DNA of 64,000 nucleotides. Origin: Rhodococcus pyridinivorans. Lineage in GTDB: Bacteria; Actinomycetota; Actinomycetes; Mycobacteriales; Mycobacteriaceae. Below the pieces are notes generated by a model. That model had not been told where the DNA came from and made no database searches. It was given only the letters and a program-made list of their open reading frames with translations. This document shows positions 28,364-64,000 of this stretch, one piece after another (the first letter of the stretch is position 1; each line of letters begins with the position of its first letter). The stretch is taken from positions 4,216,001 to 4,280,000 of the forward strand of contig NZ_FNRX01000002.1 of NCBI RefSeq assembly GCF_900105195.1. The letters are read 5' to 3'. Made by a program: the position numbers and the translations under genes.

Positions 28364-30274
28364 TTACGGTTCCGGATAGAAGTCTGCGGCGTCCGGCTGG
28401 GTCAGGACGTCCATGATGTCCACCGCATCGACCGCGTCCTCGTCCAGCAGCGTGACGAGCGTGTCCCGCTGATCCTTCGTCACCGGTTCGCAGCCGCCGG
28501 GCATCACCCACCGGTCCTCCCCCACCGGCATCACACGGGCGCACAGCAACGTCCCGGCGGGCACCTCACCCGCGAGCCAGGGCGCGGACACCTCCACCAC
28601 CCGATCGCTACGGACGTTGCGCAGCGTGAGCGACTCCTCCGGCGCACTCGCCTCGACCTCGAAGACCGAACGCTCGACCGCCAGCCACGAGCGGGCGAGC
28701 TCGGCCTCGTCCTCGGGCAGCAACTCACCGCGACGCTCGACGAAATCCGCGAAGGCGCCGGCATCGAAGAGCAGGACGTCCTCGACGAGAGGATCGGCGA
28801 CGGCCTCGGCCACCGCGTCGTCGTCCCCGTAGCCGGAACGCGCCTCCGCCAGCGCGACCCGCTGTTCGGCCCATCCGGGTTCGAGGGCGTGCATGGCCGC
28901 CTTCATGTACAGCCAGTCGGAGCGTTCCTCGAGCGAGTGCTCGGCGCGCCCGAGATGGCACGCCTTGTACTTGCGGCCCGACCCGCACCAGCAGCGGTCG
29001 TTGCGGCCGAGCCCCGGGACCTCCTTCGGCCGGTACCGTTCGAGCACTTCGTGGAGGGGATGTTCGTCGCCGCCCGGCACCCGGGCGAGCAGAGACAGCC
29101 CCCGTATCGCGTCCCCGCGATCGGAAGCGAAGCGCGCGAGGTCGAACAACGGGAGGTCGAAGGCGGAGTCGAGGTCGGCCGAGCGCTCGTAGTGCCGTTC
29201 GGCTTCCGTGAGGCGTCCGGTCGATTCGGCCGCGCGACCGGCGATCCAGTGCGCTGCCCCCGCCGCACGTCGCGGCGCATGGTCGAGCAGCCACAGCGCG
29301 GCCTGTTCGATCGCCTCGGGCGCGAGCTTCTCCCCCACCAGTTCGTCGTAGACGGTCTCGGCGATCTCGGGATCGGACAGCACCGAGTACAGACCGGATT
29401 TTCCCACGGCGAAACGCTCGTCGAGTTCGGCGTCGTCGCCGCGTTCGAGGGCTTCGACCAGCGACGCGAACAGGGCCACGCCGGGCACGGCGTCGACGGG
29501 GATCCCGAGCTGTTCGGCATAGATCTCGAACATTGCCCGGTCGGAGTATCCGTCGAAGTCGAAACCGTTCGGTGCCACCAGGTCTCCGCTGCGGACCAGA
29601 CCGGCTCCGGCGAGCAAGTCCCCGAGCGGCAGGGACGGCGCGGAGAACGCGTCCGGTACATCGGCGAGCACGTCGAGGAAGGCGCCCCCGAGGCTCGCCA
29701 CCTGCTGGCGGGCGATGGCCTGTTCGAGCGCGTGCACGAATTCGGCCTCACTACTTCGGACTTCGTCGTCGACCGGAGCGAACGACAAGCGACCGTCCCG
29801 CACGGTGAGTGCGAGCAGGTCTCCCGCCTCGTGACCCGCCAGGGCTCCTTCGGGAAAGACGATCGTCTCCTTGCGGACGATCTCATCCGAATCCGGATCG
29901 TTTTGCGTGGCAGCAGCTTCGAATCCACCGGGCTGCACGAGATCGAACTCGTCGTCCTCGGAGACGAGCAGCAGGAGCGGTTCGATGTCGTCGACCGGGA
30001 TCGCGTGCCGGTCGAGTTCGTCCGCGGTGAGGCGGTGTGTGAGCATCCTGCCCTCGAACAGCGCATCCGTCGCCGCGACACGGTCGTCGGACAACCACAT
30101 CAACAGCGGATGCGGTTCCGACTGTTCGAGATCGATCATCACTTGCTCGGCCGAGCCGAATCCGTGCTCCTCGAGATGATCGGCCACCTCGTCGATCGTC
30201 ATGGGTCCATGGCGCCGTACCGTGTCGAGCACGGTGTCCCACAGGGCGGATTCGGGATGTTCGTTGTCCGTCAC
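28364..30274 (-). CDS. SEC-C motif protein of unknown function
   Basis: The protein has about 636 aa. The frame extends to 30331, but residues upstream of VTDNEHPESALWD look random, so I placed the start at GTG 30274 (a second GTG at 30277 is equally possible). The N-terminal 60 residues resemble a small winged-helix. The middle is helical and repeat-like. GRNDRCWCGSGRKYKACHLG near residue 415 is a complete SEC-C zinc motif, as found at the end of SecA and in various orphan proteins. The C-terminal part is unassigned. The cellular role is not known. No partner genes adjoin it. Confidence 0.85.
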   Translation of the reverse strand: MTDNEHPESALWDTVLDTVRRHGPMTIDEVADHLEEHGFGSAEQVMIDLEQSEPHPLLMWLSDDRVAATDALFEGRMLTHRLTADELDRHAIPVDDIEPLLLLVSEDDEFDLVQPGGFEAAATQNDPDSDEIVRKETIVFPEGALAGHEAGDLLALTVRDGRLSFAPVDDEVRSSEAEFVHALEQAIARQQVASLGGAFLDVLADVPDAFSAPSLPLGDLLAGAGLVRSGDLVAPNGFDFDGYSDRAMFEIYAEQLGIPVDAVPGVALFASLVEALERGDDAELDERFAVGKSGLYSVLSDPEIAETVYDELVGEKLAPEAIEQAALWLLDHAPRRAAGAAHWIAGRAAESTGRLTEAERHYERSADLDSAFDLPLFDLARFASDRGDAIRGLSLLARVPGGDEHPLHEVLERYRPKEVPGLGRNDRCWCGSGRKYKACHLGRAEHSLEERSDWLYMKAAMHALEPGWAEQRVALAEARSGYGDDDAVAEAVADPLVEDVLLFDAGAFADFVERRGELLPEDEAELARSWLAVERSVFEVEASAPEESLTLRNVRSDRVVEVSAPWLAGEVPAGTLLCARVMPVGEDRWVMPGGCEPVTKDQRDTLVTLLDEDAVDAVDIMDVLTQPDAADFYPEP

Positions 30275-30360
30275 CACGTGATCGTACGGCGCCCGGCAGT
30301 GCTTCCGGGGGCTATGCGGTTCCTTCCGCACGTCGCCGTCGGTGTTTTCCCGATCGACAC

Positions 30361-30394
30361 GAGAAGAAGGCGTCCTTCGGGACGCCTTCTTCTC
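30361..30394. terminator. Terminator downstream of metB
   Basis: A 15-bp perfect stem (GAGAAGAAGGCGTCC at 30361-30375 and its complement at 30380-30394) with a TTCG tetraloop lies 22 bp past the metB stop. Confidence 0.85.
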
Positions 30395-30415
30395 CTGTCT
30401 TCTACGACCGGTGTG

Positions 30416-51611: not shown

Positions 51612-52067
51612 CTAGTTTCCTCCCAGAATTCCCTTGCGGGCCTTGCCGGCACGCTCTGCTTCCAAAACCCGCGCCTGCTCGGCAGGGTCGGCGTTGTTGA
51701 GGTAGTCGTTGACTTCGGTCACTGTGTGCGCGGCCGGGTCGAACATGTCCGATTCTGGAGGGTTCTCCGCGCCAGGCCCAACGAGCGAATAACCGCCGGC
51801 CAACTGCAGCGCTAGATAGTGATTCGGCTCGTCCGTGGTGTACGTGCCGGGCTGAGCACGCACTTCCCGCCCGTACACACCGCCGTCTGGGGTCGACAAC
51901 ACCACTGTCATCTGCCCGGGCTGACCGTAGATGCGGGGACGGTGGTAAACGATGATGTGGTCGGTTCCTTGAATGGGCGGGTCGATCTGGTACAAGGTCG
52001 CCAGACCGGCGAACCCTGCGATACCGTCCGCCACGATTTTTGCTGTCGGCAACACAATCTCCTTCAC
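51612..52067 (-). CDS. 151-aa phage tail-region protein
   Basis: The GTG at 52067 overlaps the stop of the glycine-rich tail gene (GTGA). The sequence starts MKEIVLPTAKIVADGIAGFA and ends in a charged helix (DPAEQARVLEAERAGKARKG). No catalytic motif. I do not recognise a specific family beyond its position among tail genes. Confidence 0.75.
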   Translation of the reverse strand: MKEIVLPTAKIVADGIAGFAGLATLYQIDPPIQGTDHIIVYHRPRIYGQPGQMTVVLSTPDGGVYGREVRAQPGTYTTDEPNHYLALQLAGGYSLVGPGAENPPESDMFDPAAHTVTEVNDYLNNADPAEQARVLEAERAGKARKGILGGN

Positions 52068-53239
52068 ACCAAAGTGGTGAACTGCAGGGGGGCCGACAAT
52101 TCCGAAGCGTTATCACCGAGATCGACGGCCTGCACTCTGACGGTGTACGTGGTCGCGGGCGTCAAGTTCACGAAGTCATTCGACGTGGTGTTGACCACCC
52201 CATAACGTGTGCCGTCCAGGAACAGCACATAGTGCTTGACCATCACGTCATCGATCGACGCCGTCCACGTCACCTTCGCTGACGTCGCCGTCAGATTGGC
52301 AATCGCGAGGTTCGTGGGGGTCGAGGGGGCAACACCGAGTTCGTCCGCCACATACACCGTCACGAACACGGCACCCGCGGCGCCGTTTCCTCCGGTGCCG
52401 ACGCCCCCGTATCCACCACCACCTCCGCCTCCGGGCGCAGATGGCCATCCGCCATGTCCGCCGTTGCCGCCGCGGCCGAAGATGCTGGTGCCTCCAGCAC
52501 CGCCGCCGCCAGCGGAGCCGACACCGATCTGCCCTACGCCGACGCTGAAACCATGCCCGCCGTTACCGCCGTTGCCTCCGGTTCGGAGTCCACCGGATCC
52601 ACCGGGGTTGAAGGGTCCGTTACCACCGGCCGAGCCGTTGAGGGTTTCGTTTCCGCCGTCACCGCCGCGAATCTTGTAGGTGCGTGCACCGGAACCGTAG
52701 TTGTCGGCGGTGGCCCCGTAAACGGTCAGGTAGCTTCCGAACGATGTTGAACCAGCCTGCTCCGGGGAACCTCCGGTGGTGCCGGGACCGATGGTGACCG
52801 ACACCGCATTTGGGAGGTCTTCCAGTTCGGATCCGGTGAACGTGGCTCGGTCCCACCCACCGCTGTATCCGCCGGCGCCACCTCGGGTGTTGCTTACGCC
52901 GTTGCGGCCACCGGACGATCCAGAAAAAGCATCGACCACGACTTTGTACGCGGCCGGATGCTTCTCCCACACATCGGATTCCGAGTAGGTGTAGAGGAAA
53001 GCCCGCTCTGATCCGAACACGACCTCGTCGATCCGGTTGTCGAGGCGAACCACTTCACCGTTGAACAGGGGTGCGGAGATGAACTCCGACTTCATGTTGT
53101 TCTGGGCGCCGTTCCATGAGCCTTTCCAAGCTCCGTTGGTGGCTTCGTTCTTCGCTTGTTCTTCGGTCTGCGCCTGCCGAGCAGCGAATGCTCCTACGCC
53201 CAGCGATCCGTCGGGTGAGGCGCCATCAGGTGAAGTCAC
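52064..53239 (-). CDS. Glycine-rich minor tail protein with fibronectin type III domain
   Basis: The protein has 391 aa. Residues 1-100 form an N-terminal virion-binding domain. About 110-300 is extremely Gly-rich (GGNGGNGGHG and GGGGGGGYGG blocks), probably a polyglycine-II bundle as in phage fibre tips. The last 90 residues are a fibronectin type III domain (PSTPTNLAIANLTATSAKVT start). GTG 53239 overlaps the previous stop. Likely a host-adhesion protein. Confidence 0.85.
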   Translation of the reverse strand: MTSPDGASPDGSLGVGAFAARQAQTEEQAKNEATNGAWKGSWNGAQNNMKSEFISAPLFNGEVVRLDNRIDEVVFGSERAFLYTYSESDVWEKHPAAYKVVVDAFSGSSGGRNGVSNTRGGAGGYSGGWDRATFTGSELEDLPNAVSVTIGPGTTGGSPEQAGSTSFGSYLTVYGATADNYGSGARTYKIRGGDGGNETLNGSAGGNGPFNPGGSGGLRTGGNGGNGGHGFSVGVGQIGVGSAGGGGAGGTSIFGRGGNGGHGGWPSAPGGGGGGGYGGVGTGGNGAAGAVFVTVYVADELGVAPSTPTNLAIANLTATSAKVTWTASIDDVMVKHYVLFLDGTRYGVVNTTSNDFVNLTPATTYTVRVQAVDLGDNASELSAPLQFTTLV

Positions 53240-53595
53240 CGCTCCTCCTCAACGTCCTCATGCTGGAACTCCCACAGCACAATCAGCCGATGCAGCAACG
53301 CCAGCAACAGCACAATGACGGTGACAGCTCGTACTTCGTTGCGCCACGTGTAGTCGCCGAGCCACCACACCGATATCAGCTGCAGCCCGATCAGACCGAG
53401 AGCGGCCGCCGTGTACATCAGGGTCTTGCCGGCCTCGGTGGTGCGCCACGGAGAACGGAACCCGTACAGTGCGACAAACAGCCACGCCAGGACTGTCATG
53501 GTCGTCAGCAGAATGCGGGCTTCCTCCTGCGGATCGAACACCGCAACCACCACACCGCAGGCGACCGCAGCCACCGGCAGAATGATCCGTCTCAT
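53236..53595 (-). CDS. Four-helix phage membrane protein
   Basis: The protein has 119 aa with four hydrophobic segments (residues about 4-22, 30-48, 60-82 and 90-112) and an acidic C-terminus (HEDVEEER). It lies in the lysis region after the holin-like genes, with 4-nt overlaps on both sides. It could be an additional holin or antiholin. Function is inferred only from position and topology. Confidence 0.7.
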   Translation of the reverse strand: MRRIILPVAAVACGVVVAVFDPQEEARILLTTMTVLAWLFVALYGFRSPWRTTEAGKTLMYTAAALGLIGLQLISVWWLGDYTWRNEVRAVTVIVLLLALLHRLIVLWEFQHEDVEEER

Positions 53596-53798
53596 GCGTT
53601 CCGCCTCCTCATCGCCGCCGCGGCAGACGCACCAAACCCGTTCACCCTGATGTGTTTCTCCGCAAGTTCGGCCAAGCGCTCCACATACTCGCGTTGCGCC
53701 TGCACCTGCTCGAGCCGCTGCTCGGTCACGATCCGCTCCGCCCGCGCCCTCTTCACCGCCGTGGATTCGGGCTTCTGCTTCTTTCTCCACCACGTCAC
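53592..53798 (-). CDS. 68-aa basic coiled-coil protein of the lysis module
   Basis: The GTG at 53798 overlaps the previous stop (GTGA), and the gene's stop overlaps the next ATG. The sequence MTWWRKKQKPESTAVKRARA, with a long helix after it, is strongly basic. No family recognised. The double overlap argues for a real gene. Confidence 0.65.
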   Translation of the reverse strand: MTWWRKKQKPESTAVKRARAERIVTEQRLEQVQAQREYVERLAELAEKHIRVNGFGASAAAAMRRRNA

Positions 53799-54079
53799 AG
53801 CCCCTCCCCTGCACCGAGTTTTTTCAGCGTTTCGGCCATGTGCACCGACAGTTCGATCTTCGGGATGAGCAGGGAGATTTGAGACGCCTGCTCGTCGATG
53901 ATCTTGCGTTGCACCAGCTTGTCTTCGCGGTGCTCTTCGATCTGCCGGTCCTTCTCGGCGAGTGCAGCTCGGTGCTGCCTCCATGGGACGAGGCCGCCGA
54001 AGATGATGAGCAGTATGACTGCCGAGAGGATGCCGCCGAGGCCGATGTCGGAGGTGAAGAACGCCGAGAACTGCTCCAT
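53795..54079 (-). CDS. Holin-like protein with one membrane helix and coiled coil
   Basis: The protein has 94 aa, with a short N-terminus, one membrane helix (IGLGGILSAVILLIIFGGLV), then a charged coiled coil (residues about 38-75). This topology is common for the second holin or membrane partner in actinophage lysis cassettes. It starts 3 nt after the two-helix holin's stop. Confidence 0.7.
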   Translation of the reverse strand: MEQFSAFFTSDIGLGGILSAVILLIIFGGLVPWRQHRAALAEKDRQIEEHREDKLVQRKIIDEQASQISLLIPKIELSVHMAETLKKLGAGEGL

Positions 54080-54082
54080 GCG

Positions 54083-54442
54083 CTACCCCCTGCGGATGAA
54101 TGGATCGACGTACTGCTCCCGCAGATCGCTGGCGTGTGTGATGGCTGGGCTCGTGCCCTGGGGTGCGGCTACCGGCGTCGGCCGGACTTCCTCGCGGACG
54201 ATCTGCCGGAGGATCGGCGCGAGATCCTGCAGTGAGTCGATGGTTTGCCCGACCTTCGCGGCGAGCGGCTTGTTCGGCACCGCCCAGACGCCGATGATGC
54301 CGGCGATGATCGTGGTGATCGTGATGGCAATGGCCGCCCACTGGGGCAGGAGGTCGCCGTAGACGAGCAGCTGCGGGCCGCCGGTGGCGATCAGTGCTGC
54401 CGCGGCGATGATCGCTTTGCGGATCTCTGCGAACGTCATCAT
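54083..54442 (-). CDS. Holin
   Basis: The protein has 119 aa. Two membrane helices (AIIAAAALIATGGPQLLVYG and WAAIAITITTIIAGIIGVWA) precede VPNKP and a soluble C-terminal tail. This is the common two-helix actinophage holin placed right after the endolysin. It should open the membrane at the end of the lytic cycle so the GH25 lysozyme reaches the wall. ATG 54442 overlaps the lysozyme stop. Confidence 0.8.
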   Translation of the reverse strand: MMTFAEIRKAIIAAAALIATGGPQLLVYGDLLPQWAAIAITITTIIAGIIGVWAVPNKPLAAKVGQTIDSLQDLAPILRQIVREEVRPTPVAAPQGTSPAITHASDLREQYVDPFIRRG

Positions 54443-55398
54443 GCGCCCTCTTTCCGGTTGAGCAACTGGTCGAGCTTGGACTCGATGCGGACCTGCCGCG
54501 CCGCGACGGTCTGCACCAGCGCCACGAGGGAGCGGCCGACGTCGTCGGGGACGTCGGCGTATTCGGGGCGGATGTCGTAGCCGTCGAACACGGTTTCGTT
54601 CCAGATGTCGCACCAGATGTCGTAGGGCCACGGCTCGGCCGGGGTACGTGTCGACGGGTTGACGTTCTGCTGCCGGTTGATCGGGCGCAGGCGGCCCGGC
54701 TGCGGATGCAGCTGCCCTGCTCCCTGCTCGACGATGTCTGCCACGGGTTCCCCCTTGGGTTGGGCGCTGCCGAACAGCGCGCGAAGTTCGTGCTCGGTGC
54801 CTCGGAAGGCGTTGACGTCGACGGCTTGGCCGGCGACCTGTCCGCGTTCGGAGAACTGCAGGAGGACGACCGGGGGTGCGCCGGTGTGGAACTCGGCCCA
54901 TCCGGCGTGCCCGTCGCCCGGGTAGAGGACGGAGGCGTAGCCGGTTCCGTTCACGTAGTGGCTGTTCCAGATCGGCGGCGTGCCGTCCAGTCGGGGTGCG
55001 CCCATGTGGCCGGTCCAGTACCAGCGAGGCAGATAGTTCGCGAACACCCGCATCCCGCGCTCTTCGATGGCCCGGATGAGGGCCTTCATATTGTCGATGG
55101 AGCCTCGGTTGCTGGTGTCCTCGTAGTCGAGCTGCACCGGAATGCTCGGGTCGCCAAGGTGTGCGAGGAGTGCGTCGGCCTGACGGTTCACGTCGACGTT
55201 GTTGCGTGCGAAGTGGTATCCGCCGAACAGGCCCCGGAAGTGCTGGCGCATCTGGTCTCGGGCGCGGGGCCAGTACGGGTCGCGGTAGCCGTCGCCCTCG
55301 GTGACTTTGTGGGTGGCGAAGACAAATCCTTCTCGCTTGGCCGCCGCGAAGTCGAAATCACGCTGATGGTTCGAAATGTCGATGCCGTAGATGGTCAT
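54439..55398 (-). CDS. GH25 lysozyme endolysin
   Basis: The protein has 319 aa. Residues 1-210 are a glycoside hydrolase 25 domain: YGIDISNHQ (Asp5), FVFATHKVTEGDGYRDPYW, and QLDYED with the catalytic Asp/Glu pair. GH25 cleaves the beta-1,4 bond of peptidoglycan. The C-terminal 100 residues contain PYDIWCDIWNETVFDGYDIR and a helical end. No signal peptide, so it relies on the adjacent holin. It follows the M23 gene with a 4-nt overlap. Confidence 0.92.
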   Translation of the reverse strand: MTIYGIDISNHQRDFDFAAAKREGFVFATHKVTEGDGYRDPYWPRARDQMRQHFRGLFGGYHFARNNVDVNRQADALLAHLGDPSIPVQLDYEDTSNRGSIDNMKALIRAIEERGMRVFANYLPRWYWTGHMGAPRLDGTPPIWNSHYVNGTGYASVLYPGDGHAGWAEFHTGAPPVVLLQFSERGQVAGQAVDVNAFRGTEHELRALFGSAQPKGEPVADIVEQGAGQLHPQPGRLRPINRQQNVNPSTRTPAEPWPYDIWCDIWNETVFDGYDIRPEYADVPDDVGRSLVALVQTVAARQVRIESKLDQLLNRKEGA

Positions 55399-55928
55399 CG
55401 GTTTCCCTTCGGCGGGACGAGTTGCGCGAACCCTTCCCGCACGTAGTCGGAGTAACCCTCACGCTGCGCAGTGGGTGCCGGCGCCGGGGGCACCTCGTCC
55501 GGGAACAGCGCCCCGGCGAGGAGTGGGAGTGGGTCGAGTCGATTCGGGCCGGGAGGTGACCACACGGCCCGGTGCCACTCGAGGTGTAAGTGCGGAGCGA
55601 CGCCGCCGTTCGTGCGGGAGTCCGGATTGATGTGCCCGATCCGCTGGCCCGCTTCGACGCGCTGGCCGTAGCGGACCTCGGGGATGATGTGCCCGTACAC
55701 CGTGGTGCCCGAGCCGTCCTCGGTGGGGTGGTCGATCACGATCCACTGCCCGAACCCGGAAGCCGGTCCGACGTTGACGACGGTGCCGCCCTGCACGGCG
55801 TAGATGGGTAGACCACCGGAGCCGCCGTCCCATCCGAAGTCGACGCCGAAGTGCATTCCGCCCCATCGGGGCCCGAAACCGGAGGTGACCACGTGGCCGC
55901 GTTTGAGAGGCCAATATCGATTAGTCAT
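55395..55928 (-). CDS. M23 family peptidoglycan endopeptidase
   Basis: The protein has 177 aa. The zinc ligands are in MHFGVDFGW (HxxxD) and APHLHLEW (HxH); the LysM-free core is VTSGFGPRWGGMHFGVDFGW. M23 enzymes cut peptide cross-links. With the GH25 gene next to it, the phage carries both a glycan and a peptide hydrolase, either as two endolysins or with this one in the virion. ATG 55928 overlaps the previous stop; an upstream in-frame ATG at 55952 is less likely. Confidence 0.9.
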   Translation of the reverse strand: MTNRYWPLKRGHVVTSGFGPRWGGMHFGVDFGWDGGSGGLPIYAVQGGTVVNVGPASGFGQWIVIDHPTEDGSGTTVYGHIIPEVRYGQRVEAGQRIGHINPDSRTNGGVAPHLHLEWHRAVWSPPGPNRLDPLPLLAGALFPDEVPPAPAPTAQREGYSDYVREGFAQLVPPKGNR

Positions 55929-56110
55929 CAGATTCTGCCCTCTCTGATCCATTCGACGACGATTTCGCGGACCTGCTCGACGCGAGTGCGGTGCACACCC
56001 GTCACCGGATCGAGGCCCGCCGCCATCACCGCGTCCTCACACACCTGGCGCGACACACCCAACATTCGTGCCAGCATCGGGATCCGAATCAGATCCGGAT
56101 CCGGATTCAC
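55928..56110 (-). CDS. 60-aa helical protein, possible HTH
   Basis: MNPDPDLIRIPMLARMLGVS then RQVCEDAVMAAGLDPVTGVH suggests a small winged-helix or MerR-like fold. It overlaps both neighbours by 4 nt. It may be a structural adaptor; a regulatory role in a late operon would be unusual. Confidence 0.6.
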   Translation of the reverse strand: MNPDPDLIRIPMLARMLGVSRQVCEDAVMAAGLDPVTGVHRTRVEQVREIVVEWIREGRI

Positions 56111-56709
56111 GTCAACCCCAGGTGTGCTGTGATGCGCTCCGAAATGTCACGTGACACCAGATCGAACGCGTTGACTTCCATACCGAAGTCGGCGAGCAAA
56201 TCCCGCACCCGATCCACATCGAGACTCAGGCGTTGCGCGAGATCATCGACCCGCAACCAGCCCGACGGCACCGCCGGATCCGCCACATCTTCCATACCGA
56301 GCTTGGAATTGATGAGTTCTTTCAGTTCTGCCTTGTCTTGCTGGGGAAGCTTCGCGACGATGTCGGCCATCGTCTGCTGCGGCACGTCAGGCTCGTCCTT
56401 GTCCACCCATTCGCCCTGTGCACCCCACTGGTTCGCCACCATGTTCTTCGGCGGACGCCACTTCAACTCCGGCTCCGACTTGATACCGGCCCCGAGGACA
56501 CACATGTGATACGACTGCATCTCGTAGAACTCGACGGGCATGATGAGCGGAGCACCCTTCTGCCCCGGCGCCGCGGTGAACATCCACAGGAACCGGGTCC
56601 GGGGATTCGACTCGTCGCAGTTCTCGCGGGTCGGAACCCCGCGCCCGCTCCATGGTTCCCACTGGTCAAATCGTTTGCCTTCGATAGGCGGGTATTCGCT
56701 GATGTCCAA
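56107..56709 (-). CDS. Phage tail-region protein starting with TTG
   Basis: The protein has 200 aa. The start is TTG at 56709 with AGGAG 6 nt upstream; no nearby ATG or GTG fits. The N-terminal 120 residues are Trp-rich (FDQWEPWSGRGVPTRENCDE, LWMFTAAPGQKGAPLIMPVE). The C-terminal part has helices and an HTH-like segment (LRVDDLAQRLSLDVDRVRDL). The family is not recognised. It lies 12 nt after the split minor tail gene. Confidence 0.75.
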   Translation of the reverse strand: MDISEYPPIEGKRFDQWEPWSGRGVPTRENCDESNPRTRFLWMFTAAPGQKGAPLIMPVEFYEMQSYHMCVLGAGIKSEPELKWRPPKNMVANQWGAQGEWVDKDEPDVPQQTMADIVAKLPQQDKAELKELINSKLGMEDVADPAVPSGWLRVDDLAQRLSLDVDRVRDLLADFGMEVNAFDLVSRDISERITAHLGLT

Positions 56710-56721
56710 GAGTGCTCCTGC

Positions 56722-57315
56722 CTAGAACCCGAGCTGCTGGAACGCAGACACCAGGGCTTCGAACTTGCGCCATGCCTGGGCCACTGGATCCTCGAGCTCG
56801 GAGCCGTCGCCGATCGTCATCGTCCAGGTCGGTGGGGTCTCGCGATCCCACGACAACTGCACCTTGTGGACCCGGTCGACATAGATGCGTCCGGTCTTGT
56901 CACCGCGCACCGTGTAACCCGCCCGGTCGGACAGCCACACGTGCCCGGTCTCACCAATCAGGAAGGGTGCCCCGTCTCGCGCCGAGAACTCGTGGGCCTC
57001 GTACGATCTTGTCGCCCAGAAACCAGCACGCAGCACCATCAGCGACGAAATCGTGTACGCCTTCGAACCATCCGACGACAAGTACTCGAAGTACCTCGTC
57101 CAGCCCTGATTGTTCGCCCGGGCCGCGCTTCTCGCGACCATCCACGCCAAGATCGTGTCCTCCACGAAAGGCATCAAGATCGCCGAAGCGGCTCCGCCAA
57201 CCGGAGGGACGCCAGGAATCATCGCGAGCAAATCGCCGGCTAGCTGAATCGTTGCGTTTATTAGTTCATTGGCAGATTCGAGATCGCCTAGCCCCCCTAG
57301 GTTTCCCCAGGGGGG
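56722..57315 (-). pseudogene. C-terminal part of minor tail protein, in frame beyond an amber codon
   Basis: Immediately after the TAG at 57316-57318 the same frame is open for 198 codons (PPWGNLGGLGDLESANELIN, then LLAMIPGVPPVGGAAS and so on) to a stop at 56722. The residues resemble the C-terminal third of actinophage minor tail proteins, which are normally one polypeptide of about 580 aa; the combined length here is 574 sense codons. No ribosome site precedes any start in the segment. It is therefore either made by read-through or lost by a nonsense mutation. Confidence 0.7.
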
Positions 57316-57323
57316 CTAGGCGA
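57284..57323. other. 15-bp perfect stem-loop containing the amber codon
   Basis: TCGCCTAGCCCCCCT (57284-57298) and AGGGGGGCTAGGCGA (57309-57323) are fully complementary, with a 10-nt loop. On the minus-strand mRNA the TAG stop lies in the 5' arm of the stem. It may be a chance product of the coding sequence (PPWGNLGGLG), a recoding signal or a terminator. Confidence 0.7.
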
Positions 57324-58449
57324 CCCCCGGCATCGAGTGCCCGCCTGTGATGACCTGGATCCCCTTGGACCCGGTCTTACGCATCCGGTACGTATCCAGT
57401 CCGGTGATCTCACCGTCCCGCCACACCGCAAGCGGCATACCGCGGGCCGGCCGCCGGTTCCCCGGCTCGAAGTACTCCACCGGGATCGTCGTGTCCGTTG
57501 CGAGCTTCGACGTCGAATCGATGAAGTCCCCGACGAACTCGGAGATGGTCCGGATCAATCCGTCCCAGATCGTGCCTCCGGTCGCAGCACCGGTGGTGAA
57601 CCGACCGGACCGGTCCTCGAAGCTGACGACCCGGGTGCCGTGACGCAGGTTCGCACCCGGCCACGGCGGCGGATCACCCTCGAGATAGCAGCGGATCACG
57701 GGCGAGACTTCGGAGTCCTGCATGATCGGCTGCGCCAACTCATGGAAGTTCTTGAACCGCGAGGCCGCGATCGACCAGAGCACACCGTCGTTCATGGCCT
57801 GCGCGAAGCTGATCGGCTTGACAACCATCGACCACGTCGACTGGTTCAGGTCGGTGCGTTGCGCCGGGTCCATCGGATCCGACGGCAGCGCCCACGTCGA
57901 CTCGCGTTCACGCTGCAGCTGCAGATCGAGAATCAGCGACAACAGCCAGGTCGCGGGACCAGCCGAGATGAAAATCCGCGGAAACTGGATCCACTCAGGC
58001 AGCCACGGATTGGCCCAGACGTGATACCACTTGAGCCGCTCATAGTCCGACAGGAACCGGGCCGTGATGACCTGGTCCCCATCCTCGTCACCTTCAAGCT
58101 CGACATACTCGAGCAGCCCCGACAGGCGGGATTCGCAGTAGTCGATGGTGATGTTGACGTTGCGTTTCTCGCCACGCTCCAGCCGGCCGTGCTCGTCCCA
58201 CAGCCACTGCCCGACCGGATGATCGAACGGATGCTTGATCTCGAACACACCCGAGTCGCCATCGATCAATTCGGCCTGCACCGAATACTCGGCCTGCACG
58301 ACGTGCTGCAGCCGCATCTCGCCGTCCCACAGGCGTACCAGCGGCGGGATCTCCCGGAGACGCTGTTCTTTGCGGGCGTGCTCCTGTGTCGCGTTCCAGA
58401 TGGCCCGGCACTGCTCTTCGAGCGATAGTTCCTGGTCGATAACAGTCAA
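57316..58449 (-). CDS. Minor tail protein, N-terminal part ending at amber codon
   Basis: 377 aa from TTG 58449, which has GAGGAGGTGA 6 nt upstream. The sequence LVRLWDGEMRLQHVVQAEYS, then WLWDEHGRLERGEKRNVNIT and the remaining domain match the large siphophage minor tail (Gp37-like) family near the distal tail. The frame ends at TAG 57316 after GGHSMPGVA, where homologues normally continue; see the segment 56722-57315. It lies 18 bp after the 314-aa tail gene. Confidence 0.85.
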   Translation of the reverse strand: MTVIDQELSLEEQCRAIWNATQEHARKEQRLREIPPLVRLWDGEMRLQHVVQAEYSVQAELIDGDSGVFEIKHPFDHPVGQWLWDEHGRLERGEKRNVNITIDYCESRLSGLLEYVELEGDEDGDQVITARFLSDYERLKWYHVWANPWLPEWIQFPRIFISAGPATWLLSLILDLQLQRERESTWALPSDPMDPAQRTDLNQSTWSMVVKPISFAQAMNDGVLWSIAASRFKNFHELAQPIMQDSEVSPVIRCYLEGDPPPWPGANLRHGTRVVSFEDRSGRFTTGAATGGTIWDGLIRTISEFVGDFIDSTSKLATDTTIPVEYFEPGNRRPARGMPLAVWRDGEITGLDTYRMRKTGSKGIQVITGGHSMPGVA

Positions 58450-58467
58450 CGAGTCACCTCCTCAATC

Positions 58468-59412
58468 TCACTGGCCACCTATCGGTTCCGACCACCAGCG
58501 CGGCTGGATCAGTTCCATGCGGGCGCCACCGGCCGGCACGTTCGTCACCGACACCGGAAGCAACTGCCGTTGCGTCTTCGGGGGAATGCAGTACTCGAAG
58601 AACCTGCCCGGGACCGGCATCCGGCCGAGCAGGTTCGTATTGCCCGCGTCCCGGATCATCAACTCTTGGCCGTCCAAGTCGACGGTCACGCCGCCCTCGA
58701 GCGTGCCGATCGCCGGCAAAGCGATCATCCGATTACTGTCGTCGCGGCCCGTCATCTTCGACACCCCGGGACGCCGGTTGTACGGCGGACCCTCCCATGA
58801 GAAGTCCGGCAGGGACCAGTTGCCGCGGGTGCCGTTCCACTTCTGCAACATCGGCTGGTCGGTGGGGTTTTCGACCTCGATGTACTTCACACCGTCCGTG
58901 GTGAACTCCACCGCGGTGATCTCGGGTTCCTCGTAGTAGAACGGCATCCCAGCCCGCAACGGAAACACCCGGTTCGCGTGCTGCGTCACGAGCGGATCGA
59001 TATCAGGATTGAAGTCGTCCATCTCGTACAGCTGGATATCCAGCCAGCGTTGCGAACCCGAAGGTGCGATCACTTCGATCTTCGCGAGCGACGCATCGTG
59101 ATCCCACTGATCCTCACGCCAATCGAGAGCCTGACGGAACCTGGACATGATGTCCTCTTGGTCCCCACCCCGAACTCGCTGCGCCGAAATATGGAATCCG
59201 AGCAGAAGGTCCCGCGGGTCGTACCACAGGCCCTTCATGGTGCCGCCGGTTTGACGTTGCGTGGACTTCCAGAAGGTGCGGCCCGGGACAGGGAACAAGC
59301 CCTTGACCTGCCCCTGTCCCAGGACTACACCTTCCGCGCCCTCGTCTTCACCGTGGACCGGCCAGAAGCTGCCATCTTGCCCATGAATGTTGATGGTCAT
59401 CGACGACAGCAT
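58468..59412 (-). CDS. Distal tail / minor tail protein
   Basis: The protein has 314 aa and directly follows the tape measure gene (ATGA overlap at 59412). It includes MTINIHGQDGSFWPVHGEDE, LLLGFHISAQRVRGGDQEDI and a C-terminal beta-rich part, matching the actinophage minor tail protein that caps the tail tube after the tape measure protein. No enzymatic motif. Confidence 0.85.
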   Translation of the reverse strand: MLSSMTINIHGQDGSFWPVHGEDEGAEGVVLGQGQVKGLFPVPGRTFWKSTQRQTGGTMKGLWYDPRDLLLGFHISAQRVRGGDQEDIMSRFRQALDWREDQWDHDASLAKIEVIAPSGSQRWLDIQLYEMDDFNPDIDPLVTQHANRVFPLRAGMPFYYEEPEITAVEFTTDGVKYIEVENPTDQPMLQKWNGTRGNWSLPDFSWEGPPYNRRPGVSKMTGRDDSNRMIALPAIGTLEGGVTVDLDGQELMIRDAGNTNLLGRMPVPGRFFEYCIPPKTQRQLLPVSVTNVPAGGARMELIQPRWWSEPIGGQ

Positions 59413-62400
59413 CAGAACGGCCTCCCTCCATTGCGCATCCGCGCCAACTCCTGCTTGTCACGCGCAGCGCGCATCATCTTCGACTCGTTCACGAAATGCG
59501 GGCTGTAGATGTGCACCGAGTAGTCGTTGCCACCACCGGCGGCCGGCACCAACGAGTCCAACTGGGCGCCGGCGAACTGCAGCAACTGCTGAGGACTGTT
59601 GAAGATCGGCTCAGGCTTGTTCGACAGGTTGATTGCCATCTCGTTCGGCTTCAACCAACCGCCCGTATCGAACACCTTCAACGGCAACTTCTTCAGATGC
59701 TGCTGCACCCACTTCGGTATGCCCTGCCCCGGATCGAAACCGAGCTGCTCGTCTGCGCCCGGGAAGTTGGCCGGGATGCTCAACTCGTCGATCGGCTTCT
59801 TGTCCGAGTCCTTCGACTTCTTGCCGCCCTTCTTGCTGACGGTCTCCCCCTCCTTGGGGGGCGTGAAGTCGGGGAACGGGATAGACAACCAGCGGGACTC
59901 ACCGAACGGTGAGGCCTGCTCGATGACAGAGTCCACGATGATCCCGAACACATCCGAACCGAACTTCTTCAGCCGGTCCTTCAGTGAGAACTCGCCGCCG
60001 GACGATCCGTCCTTGCCGCCGCCGGTCGCGAGTTCTTCCTCTTCCTCAGCGATGCGCTTCTTGGTTTCCTCGAGCGAGTTCTTCGCCGAGTGCACCTGCA
60101 GGTCTGCCTTCTCCTTGTCGAGCGAGGTCGAGTCCGGATCGTTGTAGACCTTGTCGCGCGCCAACTGTGCATCCAGGACGGAGATCTCCGCCTGCCGGAG
60201 CTGGATCGCCGATTCGTCCATGTCGCCGGTGAGAGGCGGGGCCGGTTCCGTGGAGATCGCCGAAGCAACCCCGACACCGTCCCGCTTGTTCTCCAGTTCG
60301 CGGACTTTCAGTTCGGCGCGCTGCACTTTCAGATCCGCTTGTGCCTTGTCGGCGTCGGACTTCTTCTCGTTCGCGTACGTCTTGTCGCGTGCCTCCTTGG
60401 CCTGCTGCACAGCGATACGAGCCGATTCGAGATCCAGTTGGTCCTTCTCGGTCCACGGCTCACGCTCGACCGCGTACGCCCCGATACCGCTGATACCTTC
60501 CGTGCCGCCGTCGATCATTTCGTTCGGCAGATGGAAGATGCTGTGGAACTGCGAGTCGAACGCCCCCACCGCCGGCGGGCCGATCCTCGAGGTGCCATGT
60601 GCACCACCGGACTCGACGGGCTGACCGTTGAGCGTGGCCGCCATATGCTCGTCCGACGTACCGACAACGAACACCGTCCCGGCGGGACCGGAGCCCGGCT
60701 GCAGCCCGGCTGTGGATCCACCGAGCAGCGAGTACGTGGTGTAGAGCCGTCGCCCTGCAGCCTCCGATGGGGTCGCGCCCATCAGGATCTGCTGCAGGTA
60801 ACCGACCCAACCCGAACAATCCCAGCCGTTCGGGCCGGTCCCACCCCACACGTACTTGATGCCGTTGCCTGCGGTCGCCGCATCCAATGCTCGTCGGATA
60901 CCGCCGTCGGCGAACTTCTCGAGCCGATAACCGAACCGTTCTGCGACGTCCCCGAGGATCGCCGTCGAACGTGCCCGCTTTGACTCGGCCAGCGGAATGA
61001 ACGCTTCACCGCCGGTTTCGCCTTCGGCCCACTGCACCAGTCCGGCGCCGCGGCCCGGTTCGATGCGTGCATTCTCGGGGAGGCGGTCGATACCACCGTT
61101 TGCGCGGGGTGTGACCGAGAGTGGGCCGACGAAGCCGGGGTTGGCGTTGCGTGCTGCGCCGTAGTCGACTGCGAACTGTACGGCGATCTCGGCGGTCCGT
61201 TTCCGGGCCGCGTCGTCGATGGCCGCGTTGACGACCTGTGCGTTCGCGAGGGCCTGCTGGATCTGCAGCAGGACCTCGGGGTTGGCCTTCGAGGTGTCGA
61301 GTGCTGCCAGCTTCTCGAGGGTGACACTCTCACCTGCGAGGAACTGGTCGATGATCGCCCCGATTTCTGGGGAGACCTGTGTGCGGTCGATGTTTCCGAG
61401 CGAGTCCAGAGTGTTCTGGTCGACGATGCGGAACATCGTGTCGTCGGCGCCGATCTCCGGTACAGCGGACTCGCCGCCCACTTCATGAACCTTGTCGAGC
61501 ACCGCGTCCAACGCCGCGATAGCCAGACTGTTATCCGCAGAGATCCGGATGTTCTCGTTCTGGAGCTTCTCGACCTCAAAGCCCATCTCCCGCAAGGTGG
61601 CAAGAACCTGCGGATCGATATCAGCCGGGTCGATCTCGATCGGCTTGTCCGGAAAATTCTCCAGGTAAGTCCTGATCAGATCGAGACCAGCAACGACCGC
61701 ACCATCGCCGTCGAGTCGGACGCCGATATCGAACGCCTCCGGAAGGTATCCCTCGGCCGCGGCGATCTTCATGATCTCGTCGAACGATAAGCCCGCCGAT
61801 TCGGCGAGGGCACGGAACATGTCCTCGTTCGCCGCGAGCGTGGCATCCAGATCGCCGCCCGACGCAACTACGTCAGCGGTGGCGTTCTTGATATCCAGGA
61901 TCGAATCGCGGAGCCTCGCACCATTCTCGGTGCTCGTATCGACAGAACCGTTCTGGCCGATGAGGGCATCAGCCCACCCCTTCGACTGGTCCCACGCCTC
62001 AGCCGTAGCCTCAGCAGTGTCCCGGACGAGCTCGTTGTAATCCTGCATGGCGTCGCCGAGTGACGGCGGCACCCCCGCGAGGATGTCCAACGTTCGCTTG
62101 AGCGCGCTCGACTTGTCATCAGCCGAAGCTGCTGAATCAGCCAGGGTCTTGAAGCTGTCAGCGAGCTCTCCAATGCCAGGGGTGAGATCCCGTGCAGCTC
62201 CCTGCTGTCGCTGCAGCTCTTCACGCTGCCGCTCGAGAGACTCAATCGCCTCATCGGATGCGCCACCAACCGAACGCATCTTTTCGAGGAAGCTGCTCCA
62301 CCCAAGATCCGAGCCGGACATCGCATCCGCGATATCGCGGTTCGACGCACCGACCTTTCGAAGCGCGTCAGCGGTCTCTTCAGCGACGCGGCCGGCTTCC

Positions 62401-64000
62401 TGCAGGTCGTCGTTCGCGCCACCCCACCAGGCATCCCACCGCTCACCGAGCGACATGCCGTCTTCCCACTTCGGCATGACCCAGTTGGTGATGTCATTCA
62501 TCAACCCTGGGGCTTCGGACGCGGTGCGCTCCAGTCCCTGGCGGTAGGTCTCCATCTGCTGGGTGAGCGCGTCGAAGACGTCCTCGTTGATGACTCCGCG
62601 GCTCTCCTGCAGCGCCTTCCCGACGTCACGCTGAGCCTCAGCGAGCTTGTTCGCGGACTCGAGGTTCGCGTTCTGCGAATCCTCCATGTCGTCCATCGCG
62701 CCGACGAACTGCGTCGCTGCAACGATAGCCAACCCGATGCCGAGGCCACCGGAGAACAGATTCCGGACGCCCGACGCCGCGGCCCGCAACCCGCCGAGAG
62801 CCGGGGTCACACCGGCACGGATAGCACCGGCGAAACCACCTGCAGCAGTCGACGAGTTGATGAACGCGTTCTGCATGTTTCGGATGGTCGCCGAGTTGTT
62901 CCCCAGCGCACGCATCGCAGCGCCCACACGACCGATCTGCGGAGACAGATTCCGGAAATCGCCGCGCATCGCAGCGAACGACGCCCGAACCCCAGCCGTC
63001 GATGTCGACGTCGCAGCCAGCGACGTCCGCAGCGGAGCGAACGCTGCCGCCGCGGCAGCGCCCAACGCCGGCAACGTCTTGAATGCGGCAAACGCAAGCA
63101 CCAGGGCAGTAACTGCTCCCTGGTTCTCGACCATCAACTCAGACAGCGTGGACAGCGCCGGAACCAGAACCGCATCAGCGACCTGCGCGGCAGCATCCAG
63201 CGTATTCAGCAACACCTGCCACGTCGACACACCCACTGCGGCCGACGCCTGCACGAGAGACTCGACGATCGCCTGAATCGCTGGAGCCAACTCACGCCCG
63301 GTATCGAGCAACTCTCCAAACGTGGCACTGACCTGGGTGATCGATCCCACCACGAGACCGGAGCCGGTGAACTCGCCCCACATCTCAGCGATAGTGCGAC
63401 CGAATTCCTGAGCCTTCGGAATACCGTCCGAGTCCAGCCAGCGATCGAACTTGTCGACAAACGGCGTGATCGCCGCGGTCGCACCGTCAATCGCTTCGGT
63501 GATGCTGCCGAATCCGCCGGCGGCCCGATTGAACACTGGCCCTGCCACCACAGCACCGAAGCGACCCAGGGCGGCGCCCGCGTTCTGCATGGCGCCGGTG
63601 ACAGTCTGTCCGGCTTCCTGTGCGGCGCCGCCGATGTTCTTCTGGATCGCTGCGAAGAACATCTCCGAGGAGATCTTGCCCTCGGAAGCCATGTCCTTGA
63701 CTTCACCGGCTGCGACACCGGCTTCTTCGGCGAGCCACTGGTAAATCGGGATACCGCGGTCCGACAGCTGGTTGAGGCTGTCGGTGTAGGCGACCTGGCC
63801 GGTCTGGACCTGGTTCAGCACACCCCCCATCTCCGACAAACCAACGCCGGCGATTGCCGCGGCATCAGCTGTCATCGACAGGTACTTCGTCAACTCTGCA
63901 CCGGGCTTGATGCCAGCGGCGACAGCGGAAGCGGCGATTGTGGCGGCGTCACCGAGTCCGTAGGCGGTGCCTCGAACGGAGTCGAGCGCCGAGTCCATGA
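59412..64000 (-). CDS. Tape measure protein with NlpC/P60 domain (5' end outside window)
   Basis: 1528 aa are visible; the frame is open at the right edge. The first visible ATG (63998) lies inside a conserved tape-measure N-terminal domain, so the real start is outside. The order is: tape-measure domain (MTADAAAIAGVGLSEMGGVL onward), Ala-rich coiled coils, a hydrophobic stretch (LGIGLAIVAATQFVGAM), and more coiled coil. An NlpC/P60-like domain lies near visible residue 1060 (YVWGGTGPNGWDCSGW with Cys, then DEHMAATLNG), and a charged helical tail ends the protein. It sets tail length. The peptidase part probably opens the wall during DNA entry. Confidence 0.93.
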   Translation of the reverse strand, partial: MDSALDSVRGTAYGLGDAATIAASAVAAGIKPGAELTKYLSMTADAAAIAGVGLSEMGGVLNQVQTGQVAYTDSLNQLSDRGIPIYQWLAEEAGVAAGEVKDMASEGKISSEMFFAAIQKNIGGAAQEAGQTVTGAMQNAGAALGRFGAVVAGPVFNRAAGGFGSITEAIDGATAAITPFVDKFDRWLDSDGIPKAQEFGRTIAEMWGEFTGSGLVVGSITQVSATFGELLDTGRELAPAIQAIVESLVQASAAVGVSTWQVLLNTLDAAAQVADAVLVPALSTLSELMVENQGAVTALVLAFAAFKTLPALGAAAAAAFAPLRTSLAATSTSTAGVRASFAAMRGDFRNLSPQIGRVGAAMRALGNNSATIRNMQNAFINSSTAAGGFAGAIRAGVTPALGGLRAAASGVRNLFSGGLGIGLAIVAATQFVGAMDDMEDSQNANLESANKLAEAQRDVGKALQESRGVINEDVFDALTQQMETYRQGLERTASEAPGLMNDITNWVMPKWEDGMSLGERWDAWWGGANDDLQEAGRVAEETADALRKVGASNRDIADAMSGSDLGWSSFLEKMRSVGGASDEAIESLERQREELQRQQGAARDLTPGIGELADSFKTLADSAASADDKSSALKRTLDILAGVPPSLGDAMQDYNELVRDTAEATAEAWDQSKGWADALIGQNGSVDTSTENGARLRDSILDIKNATADVVASGGDLDATLAANEDMFRALAESAGLSFDEIMKIAAAEGYLPEAFDIGVRLDGDGAVVAGLDLIRTYLENFPDKPIEIDPADIDPQVLATLREMGFEVEKLQNENIRISADNSLAIAALDAVLDKVHEVGGESAVPEIGADDTMFRIVDQNTLDSLGNIDRTQVSPEIGAIIDQFLAGESVTLEKLAALDTSKANPEVLLQIQQALANAQVVNAAIDDAARKRTAEIAVQFAVDYGAARNANPGFVGPLSVTPRANGGIDRLPENARIEPGRGAGLVQWAEGETGGEAFIPLAESKRARSTAILGDVAERFGYRLEKFADGGIRRALDAATAGNGIKYVWGGTGPNGWDCSGWVGYLQQILMGATPSEAAGRRLYTTYSLLGGSTAGLQPGSGPAGTVFVVGTSDEHMAATLNGQPVESGGAHGTSRIGPPAVGAFDSQFHSIFHLPNEMIDGGTEGISGIGAYAVEREPWTEKDQLDLESARIAVQQAKEARDKTYANEKKSDADKAQADLKVQRAELKVRELENKRDGVGVASAISTEPAPPLTGDMDESAIQLRQAEISVLDAQLARDKVYNDPDSTSLDKEKADLQVHSAKNSLEETKKRIAEEEEELATGGGKDGSSGGEFSLKDRLKKFGSDVFGIIVDSVIEQASPFGESRWLSIPFPDFTPPKEGETVSKKGGKKSKDSDKKPIDELSIPANFPGADEQLGFDPGQGIPKWVQQHLKKLPLKVFDTGGWLKPNEMAINLSNKPEPIFNSPQQLLQFAGAQLDSLVPAAGGGNDYSVHIYSPHFVNESKMMRAARDKQELARMRNGGRPF

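Follow-up and report, generated by a model that had tools for sequence, protein, structure and literature searches.

To our knowledge, efficient bypassing of long gaps by bacterial ribosomes rests mainly on one gene, gene 60 of phage T4, and because bypassing is known mainly from this gene its rules are hard to generalise. Gene 60 has 5′ and 3′ accessory stem-loops and a Shine-Dalgarno-like site. Its gap measures 50 nt, with GGA as both take-off and landing codon (PMC5009743), and the processivity of bypass sliding is described as uniform over gap lengths of up to 56 nt (PMC11194080). Bypassing has also been considered at the tape measure gene of Corndog (PMC4351075), a case different from the one presented here. 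In this work we analysed a tail gene in a 64-kb stretch of Rhodococcus pyridinivorans DNA (hereafter, the window) together with its relatives. Comparison of these sequences indicates that an insert in the gene is probably (at a rough probability of 0.77) a programmed ribosomal bypassing element, i.e., a stretch of a hub gene that would be skipped by translation.

A hairpin insert in a prophage baseplate hub gene

On the minus strand of the window, a frame is open from 58449 to a TAG codon at 57318-57316 and then continues for 197 sense codons to a second TAG at 56724-56722. The stop at 57316-57318 and the open frame beyond it had been pointed out in the initial annotation and are present in the sequence; its count of 198 sense codons takes in the second stop. 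The proposal that the continuation is the missing C-terminal third of the protein was borne out, since Pfam Sipho_Gp37 matches both gene halves (profile positions 2-249 and 242-370 of 370). The halves also match PHROG 110 (minor tail protein), and solved-structure and fold searches with the hub product returned near-full-length matches to Bxb1 gp25 (9d93) and Douge gp18 (8zdo). In the solved structures of Bxb1 and Douge the baseplate hub is one chain without an insert, and Bxb1 gp25 reads SMPGV-NE across the position that we call site 1. An AlphaFold model of the hub protein was of moderate confidence (mean pLDDT 65). The gene order is tape measure gene, another minor tail gene, hub gene, gene for a gene-29-like protein and lysin genes. 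As judged by homology, the product of the split gene is a baseplate hub, a homologue of Bxb1 gp25, in a prophage. The features of the locus are:

57322..58449, minus strand: hub gene, upstream part; 376 codons, TTG start, ends at the predicted take-off codon
57280..57327, minus strand: hairpin of 22 bp with a 4-nt loop (RNAfold); starts in the GGG codon preceding the take-off codon
57322..57324, minus strand: predicted take-off codon GTC, paired within the stem base; last codon homologous to uninserted relatives
57271..57321, minus strand: insert of 51 nt, missing in uninserted relatives; exact gap between the adjoining residues 376 and 377 of L033
57316..57318, minus strand: in-frame TAG (the amber codon of the initial annotation) in the 5′ arm; second codon past the take-off codon
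57271..57273, minus strand: predicted landing triplet GCC, equal to GTC at two of three positions
57270-57268, minus strand: resume codon AAT, directly after the landing triplet
56725..57270, minus strand: hub gene, downstream part; 182 codons
56722..56724, minus strand: hub gene stop codon TAG

The nearest relative without an insert, L033, encodes a hub protein of 558 residues that is ~80% identical overall (82% to the upstream part and 80% to the downstream part), and when its two parts were used as queries, exactly 51 nt lay in the window between residues that adjoin in L033. In the alignment with uninserted homologues no sense codon stands in place of the TAG, as the whole 51-nt insert is missing there. 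On this homology the TAG is incidental, being one codon of the insert, which is the true homology break, and the downstream part is in the frame of the upstream part only because the insert is a multiple of three. A read-through product, which had been thought to match the usual full length, would be 17 residues longer than the L033 protein. The stem that had been noted at this place is real, but RNAfold pairs 57327-57306 with 57301-57280 (G-U pairs counted), giving 22 bp and a 4-nt loop rather than 15 bp and 10 nt. The 101-nt stretch holding the stem folds at -60.7 kcal/mol (z -8.6), and none of 200 dinucleotide shuffles folded as well. The suggestion that the hairpin is partly a by-product of the coding sequence fails, since the whole stretch is absent in uninserted relatives.

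When phage records were searched at near identity with window positions 52000-64000, only ~120 bases of a lysin gene matched. Two IMG/VR records (L031 and L032) share the window's junction; they may derive from the same or a near-identical genome and so offer no independent resequencing of it. The protein database holds six stand-alone C-terminal hub proteins (P0002-P0007, 118-174 residues), one from Rhodococcus sp. CSLK01-03 that is 72% identical to the window's downstream part. Some of the six may be fragments at the ends of the short contigs that carry them, and others suggest more interrupted hub genes.

Hairpin inserts recur at three sites of the hub gene

The hub genes of Nocardia, of the window's own genus and of viral contigs yielded 28 different hairpin inserts, 20 at site 1, six at site 2 and two at site 3, these counts being of related copies and not of independent events. 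Site 2 follows an NPF motif and has TTT as take-off codon (L007, L029, L303, L305, L306 and L317), and site 3 lies four codons before it with TGG (L304 and L309). Nineteen of the 28 came from protein homology, shortened frames or a hairpin scan (L029 via the scan), three site-1 inserts via an upstream-flank pattern, five via a covariance model with the landing region among its columns, and L317 via a site-2 pattern. Most are located in prophages or unlinked viral contigs, and the named relatives carrying the insert are Nocardia. Insert length is 46-56 nt in 27 of the 28, inside the range of up to 56 nt described for constant processivity, and 72 nt in L309 (G445 contig 99, site 3), which has a second small hairpin within its loop.

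At the 214 loci where both hub parts could be placed, the gap was either 0 (170 loci) or 46-56 nt (44 loci, comprising 12 different inserts). A second example in the window's genus, in genome G008, has a different hairpin sequence and its downstream part in another frame. Of seven hub regions whose frames were shortened or broken, five had an insert at another place and two had none. The site-1 covariance model scored above 50 bits in 10 of 150 genomes of the genus Nocardia, four of 401 of the family and two of 397 of the order (overlapping genome sets, strict filters), always at hub site 1. Elsewhere in those genomes no place exceeded 42 bits; since sites 2 and 3 escaped the model too, this says little on other genes. 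Seven weaker matches that were inspected (32-41 bits) appeared by eye to be mostly hairpins at gene ends. In the collected loci (1.79 Mb, with much overlap) the scan detected 61 distinct hairpins whose arms measured at least 15; 17 of them had open, coding-like flanks. The cultured Rhodococcus phages REQ3 and ReT1v-1 have no insert and an intact hub despite a split appearance in match lists. Among the matches listed in the open-access literature, none described inserts of this kind for hub or Gp37-like genes.

The initial annotation had named programmed read-through and tRNA suppression of the TAG first among its options, and the window's insert, in frame with one stop, is what such a process would need. 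Yet 20 of the 28 inserts are not multiples of three and 15 have no stop in the upstream frame for 30 codons. With lengths in all three classes modulo 3 (class 1, 13 inserts; class 0, eight; class 2, seven), read-through is ruled out as an explanation of the inserts, and at the TAG itself we rate read-through or suppression as extremely improbable. No tRNA gene was found in the 64-kb window, and a suppressor tRNA was rejected as a candidate. Hairpin inserts do recur in related prophages, although a stop as the second codon past the take-off codon is found only in the window and L120. A lone nonsense mutation or base error, also considered earlier, is contradicted by the 28 different inserts, by stem covariation and by selection on the downstream part; the comparison points instead to another of the options then listed, ribosome bypassing as at T4 gene 60.

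An intein was rejected as well, given the 20 inserts out of frame and the different look of intein-like inserts in other hub genes. Two such inserts were recognised by eye. One, in a Nocardia-group hub gene (L064 and L088; G315 contig 45), spans ~160 in-frame residues ~10 codons after site 1, beginning CVSGDTV and ending SHNT; the other start (CVSG-ETL or CVSG-QTL) occurs soon after the NPF motif in L310 (G453 contig 14) and L311 (G444 contig 1, ~340.5 kb). Inserts of several kinds seem to be drawn to the hub gene.

Structure and covariation of the stems

Every insert folds strongly into a hairpin whose base lies at the last upstream codon. All three bases of the take-off codon are paired in 26 of 27 folded inserts, and L317, the 28th, leaves the third base unpaired. 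Across 15 site-1 inserts an 18-bp helix is 95.2% paired, and nine of its pairs change on both sides, in 40 cells, a level reached by three of 500 shuffles. Site-1 stem covariation was 0.513, compared with 0.193 in shuffles (0/500 reaching it; a control that ignores the kinship of inserts) and at most 0.108 when the stem was slid. The outermost helix pair fails in nine of 14. At the protein level, SMPGV is encoded at site 1 in 20 of 20 inserted copies versus 58 of 110 uninserted ones (as defined at site 1; L007 and L029 among them have a site-2 insert). Fourteen bases at site 1 are common to 18 of the 20 inserted versus two of the 110 uninserted copies; some copies were found through that sequence, which is in 10 of the 12 protein-homology finds.

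Over the 28 inserts the mRNA-strand stem pairs include 52 G-U and eight A-C, and with G-U so far in excess on this strand the stem seems to be kept as mRNA, not DNA. Removal of the insert at the DNA level before the gene is used, which the patchy presence on the tree described below would suit, is thereby disfavoured, as G-U is tolerated on one strand only, suggesting RNA, and no recombinase was found beside the hub gene among the scanned neighbouring proteins; we give such removal next to no weight.

Matching triplets at the ends of the inserts

The position of the resume codon was fixed by homology to uninserted relatives, and T and C were counted alike at the third position. The results showed that in all 28 inserts the triplet before the resume codon shares two or three positions with the last upstream codon (three positions in nine; two in 19, including GTC to GCC in the window). 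By comparison, control triplets at offsets 3-20 nt further up matched in 77 of 504 cases (15%), and re-dealing the landing triplets among inserts (20,000 draws) produced 17.6 matches on average and never more than 25. The match is found in 17 of 17 inserts of a kin-thinned set, in all 19 inserts found without flank pattern, model or site-2 pattern, and in three take-off families (GTN, TTT and TGG). At site 1, take-off GTG goes with a G-ending landing triplet in 3/3, and a landing triplet ending in C accompanies GTC or GTT in 16/17; when the next codon is taken as take-off instead, only 13 of 20 match.

This result bears on the main rival reading, RNA splicing, in which the hairpin would be a miniature intron excised from the mRNA with its ends rejoined. 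Exact borders, frame independence and a stem on the mRNA strand are equally expected of a spliced element. Splicing, however, needs no codon match, unless the match marks the splice site, and at ~50 nt the insert is far below the size of self-splicing introns, which are far larger. The region gave no Rfam intron match (at E values up to 1 the sole Rfam match was a chance-level one to a miRNA family, well under its cut-off); a group I or II intron was rejected as a candidate on this ground. We consider splicing unlikely.

Reading frames and selection on the downstream part

For the Nocardia clade (seven inserts, 21 pairs) the median dN/dS was 0.165 upstream (range 0.061-2.963) and 0.152 downstream (range 0.017-0.207), the upstream maximum of 2.96 probably stemming from an extra frame break in L028, which was included. 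Between the window and L033, dN/dS was 0.21 upstream and 0.14 downstream. Mean pN/pS of the downstream part was 0.196 in its own frame versus 1.88 and 2.81 in the two other frames. Purifying selection thus acts on both sides of the insert, and downstream it acts on the frame proper to that part. In L028 and L081 (Nocardia arizonensis; G413 contig 36) the further frame break lies upstream of site 1, at hub residues ~89-95, without a hairpin-sized insert; it may be an assembly error or decay.

The hub might alternatively be two assembling polypeptides from two genes, with the hairpin as boundary or RNase III site. Consistent with this, 11 of the 28 inserts end the upstream frame within 10 codons, an ATG stands at downstream codon 10 in 15 of 20 site-1 copies, and databases contain predictions of the six stand-alone C-terminal hub proteins. 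Against it, 15 upstream frames extend >30 codons in the wrong frame into the downstream coding region, the ATG at codon 10 is also frequent in uninserted relatives, and the head of the downstream part has no start codon common to all copies; long upstream frames without a common start make two separate genes unlikely. Two genes would also leave the codon matching unexplained and have the break at three places, and we judge this reading very unlikely. Decay of the gene through selfish or accidental inserts in dying prophages would agree with the prophage location of most copies and with the further break in L028; set against the purifying selection downstream, the conserved stems, the codon matching and the recurrence, it appears highly improbable.

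A model of bypassing at the hub gene

Bypassing would account for the ~50-nt gap, the frame independence, the stem at take-off, the matching landing triplet and the exact protein length of the family, and the sequence evidence in its favour is strong. According to this model, ribosomes would translate the hub mRNA as far as GTC at the base of the hairpin, where the peptidyl-tRNA would release the mRNA; with the hairpin skipped, the tRNA would re-pair at the near-matching GCC just beyond the stem and translation would restart at AAT. One 558-residue hub protein, the same length as in the uninserted relative, would result. We infer that the gap is removed by translation rather than by RNA or DNA processing, and the take-off and landing codons are likewise predictions.

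Distribution and possible mobility of the inserts

In a quick tree built from the upstream part (87 rows, 18 of them inserted; L157 and L203 omitted as too short, uninserted rows thinned at 85% identity), insert presence needs nine changes versus 16.6 when shuffled, and the well-supported branches alone require at least eight; these are counted as changes only, gain and loss being indistinguishable in direction. Inserted and uninserted copies are close kin in the window and L033, in L252 and L047, and in seven Nocardia and L023. The patchy presence on the tree and the three sites suggest that the inserts may be mobile. A neighbouring homing endonuclease would parallel the T4 case. None was found among eleven proteins neighbouring the hub (nine scanned with Pfam and PHROGs and two with one each; three L024 frames, picked by length, had no match), nor among the tail and lysin genes scanned.

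Strong hairpins with the core GTGCCCC...GGGGCAC, apparently at gene ends, were seen in L278, L256, L280, L281 and similar host loci. Speculatively, these hairpins, which are like the site-1 inserts and might be terminators, could be the origin of the element. In the window itself, a 20-bp stem with a TTCG loop at 30356-30399, between minus-strand frames 28364-30331 and 30402-31211, is probably a terminator.

We see about an even chance that the hairpins are a mobile family that enters an essential gene while hidden from translation, among phages of Nocardia, Rhodococcus and their kin, with several take-off codons (Val, Phe and Trp), several hub sites and probably other phage genes. If so, mobile hairpins would be a ribosomal counterpart of introns and inteins.

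Comparison with known bypassing systems

Since the 28 natural variants differ in stem, length, take-off codon and landing mismatch, comparing them would put the rules of bypassing to the test, and, if the model is right, a recoding hairpin can play the part of an intron in a phage gene. Because gene callers cut such genes short or assign them a wrong frame, functional phages may be classed as defective.

As in T4 gene 60, a non-coding gap of ~50 nt lies in one gene (PMC5009743, PMC11194080), with a stem-loop at the take-off codon and a matching landing codon directly before the resume codon. The hub inserts differ from T4 gene 60 in gene, host group and sequence, and in comprising 28 variants at three sites. 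They also have a long, near-perfect stem and a landing match that is often two of three positions, and a stop directly follows the take-off codon in 0/28 (one codon later in the window and L120). Gene 60 further has a stimulating nascent peptide (KKYK type), which has no evident counterpart here, as the 25 residues before site 1 looked alike by eye in the 20 inserted and 30 of the 110 uninserted copies. The hub inserts resemble the mitochondrial bypass elements of Magnusiomyces capitatus, as described in PMC5009743, in being inserts within genes to be skipped, with take-off and landing codons not always perfectly matched; those elements belong to another translation system, and the likeness is one of description, not sequence. 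The suspected bypass in the terminase gene of Streptomyces phage Hau3 is likewise from an actinobacterial phage (PMC5009743), although the gap described there is much shorter and tied to UUA codons. Bxb1 gp25 and Douge gp18 are hubs that belong to the same protein family over the full length, but their solved chains have no insert. With no stop after take-off, no evident peptide signal and looser landing, the hub inserts would work like gene 60 without belonging to the same family, and the best explanation is an element family unrelated to T4 gene 60 and perhaps mobile.
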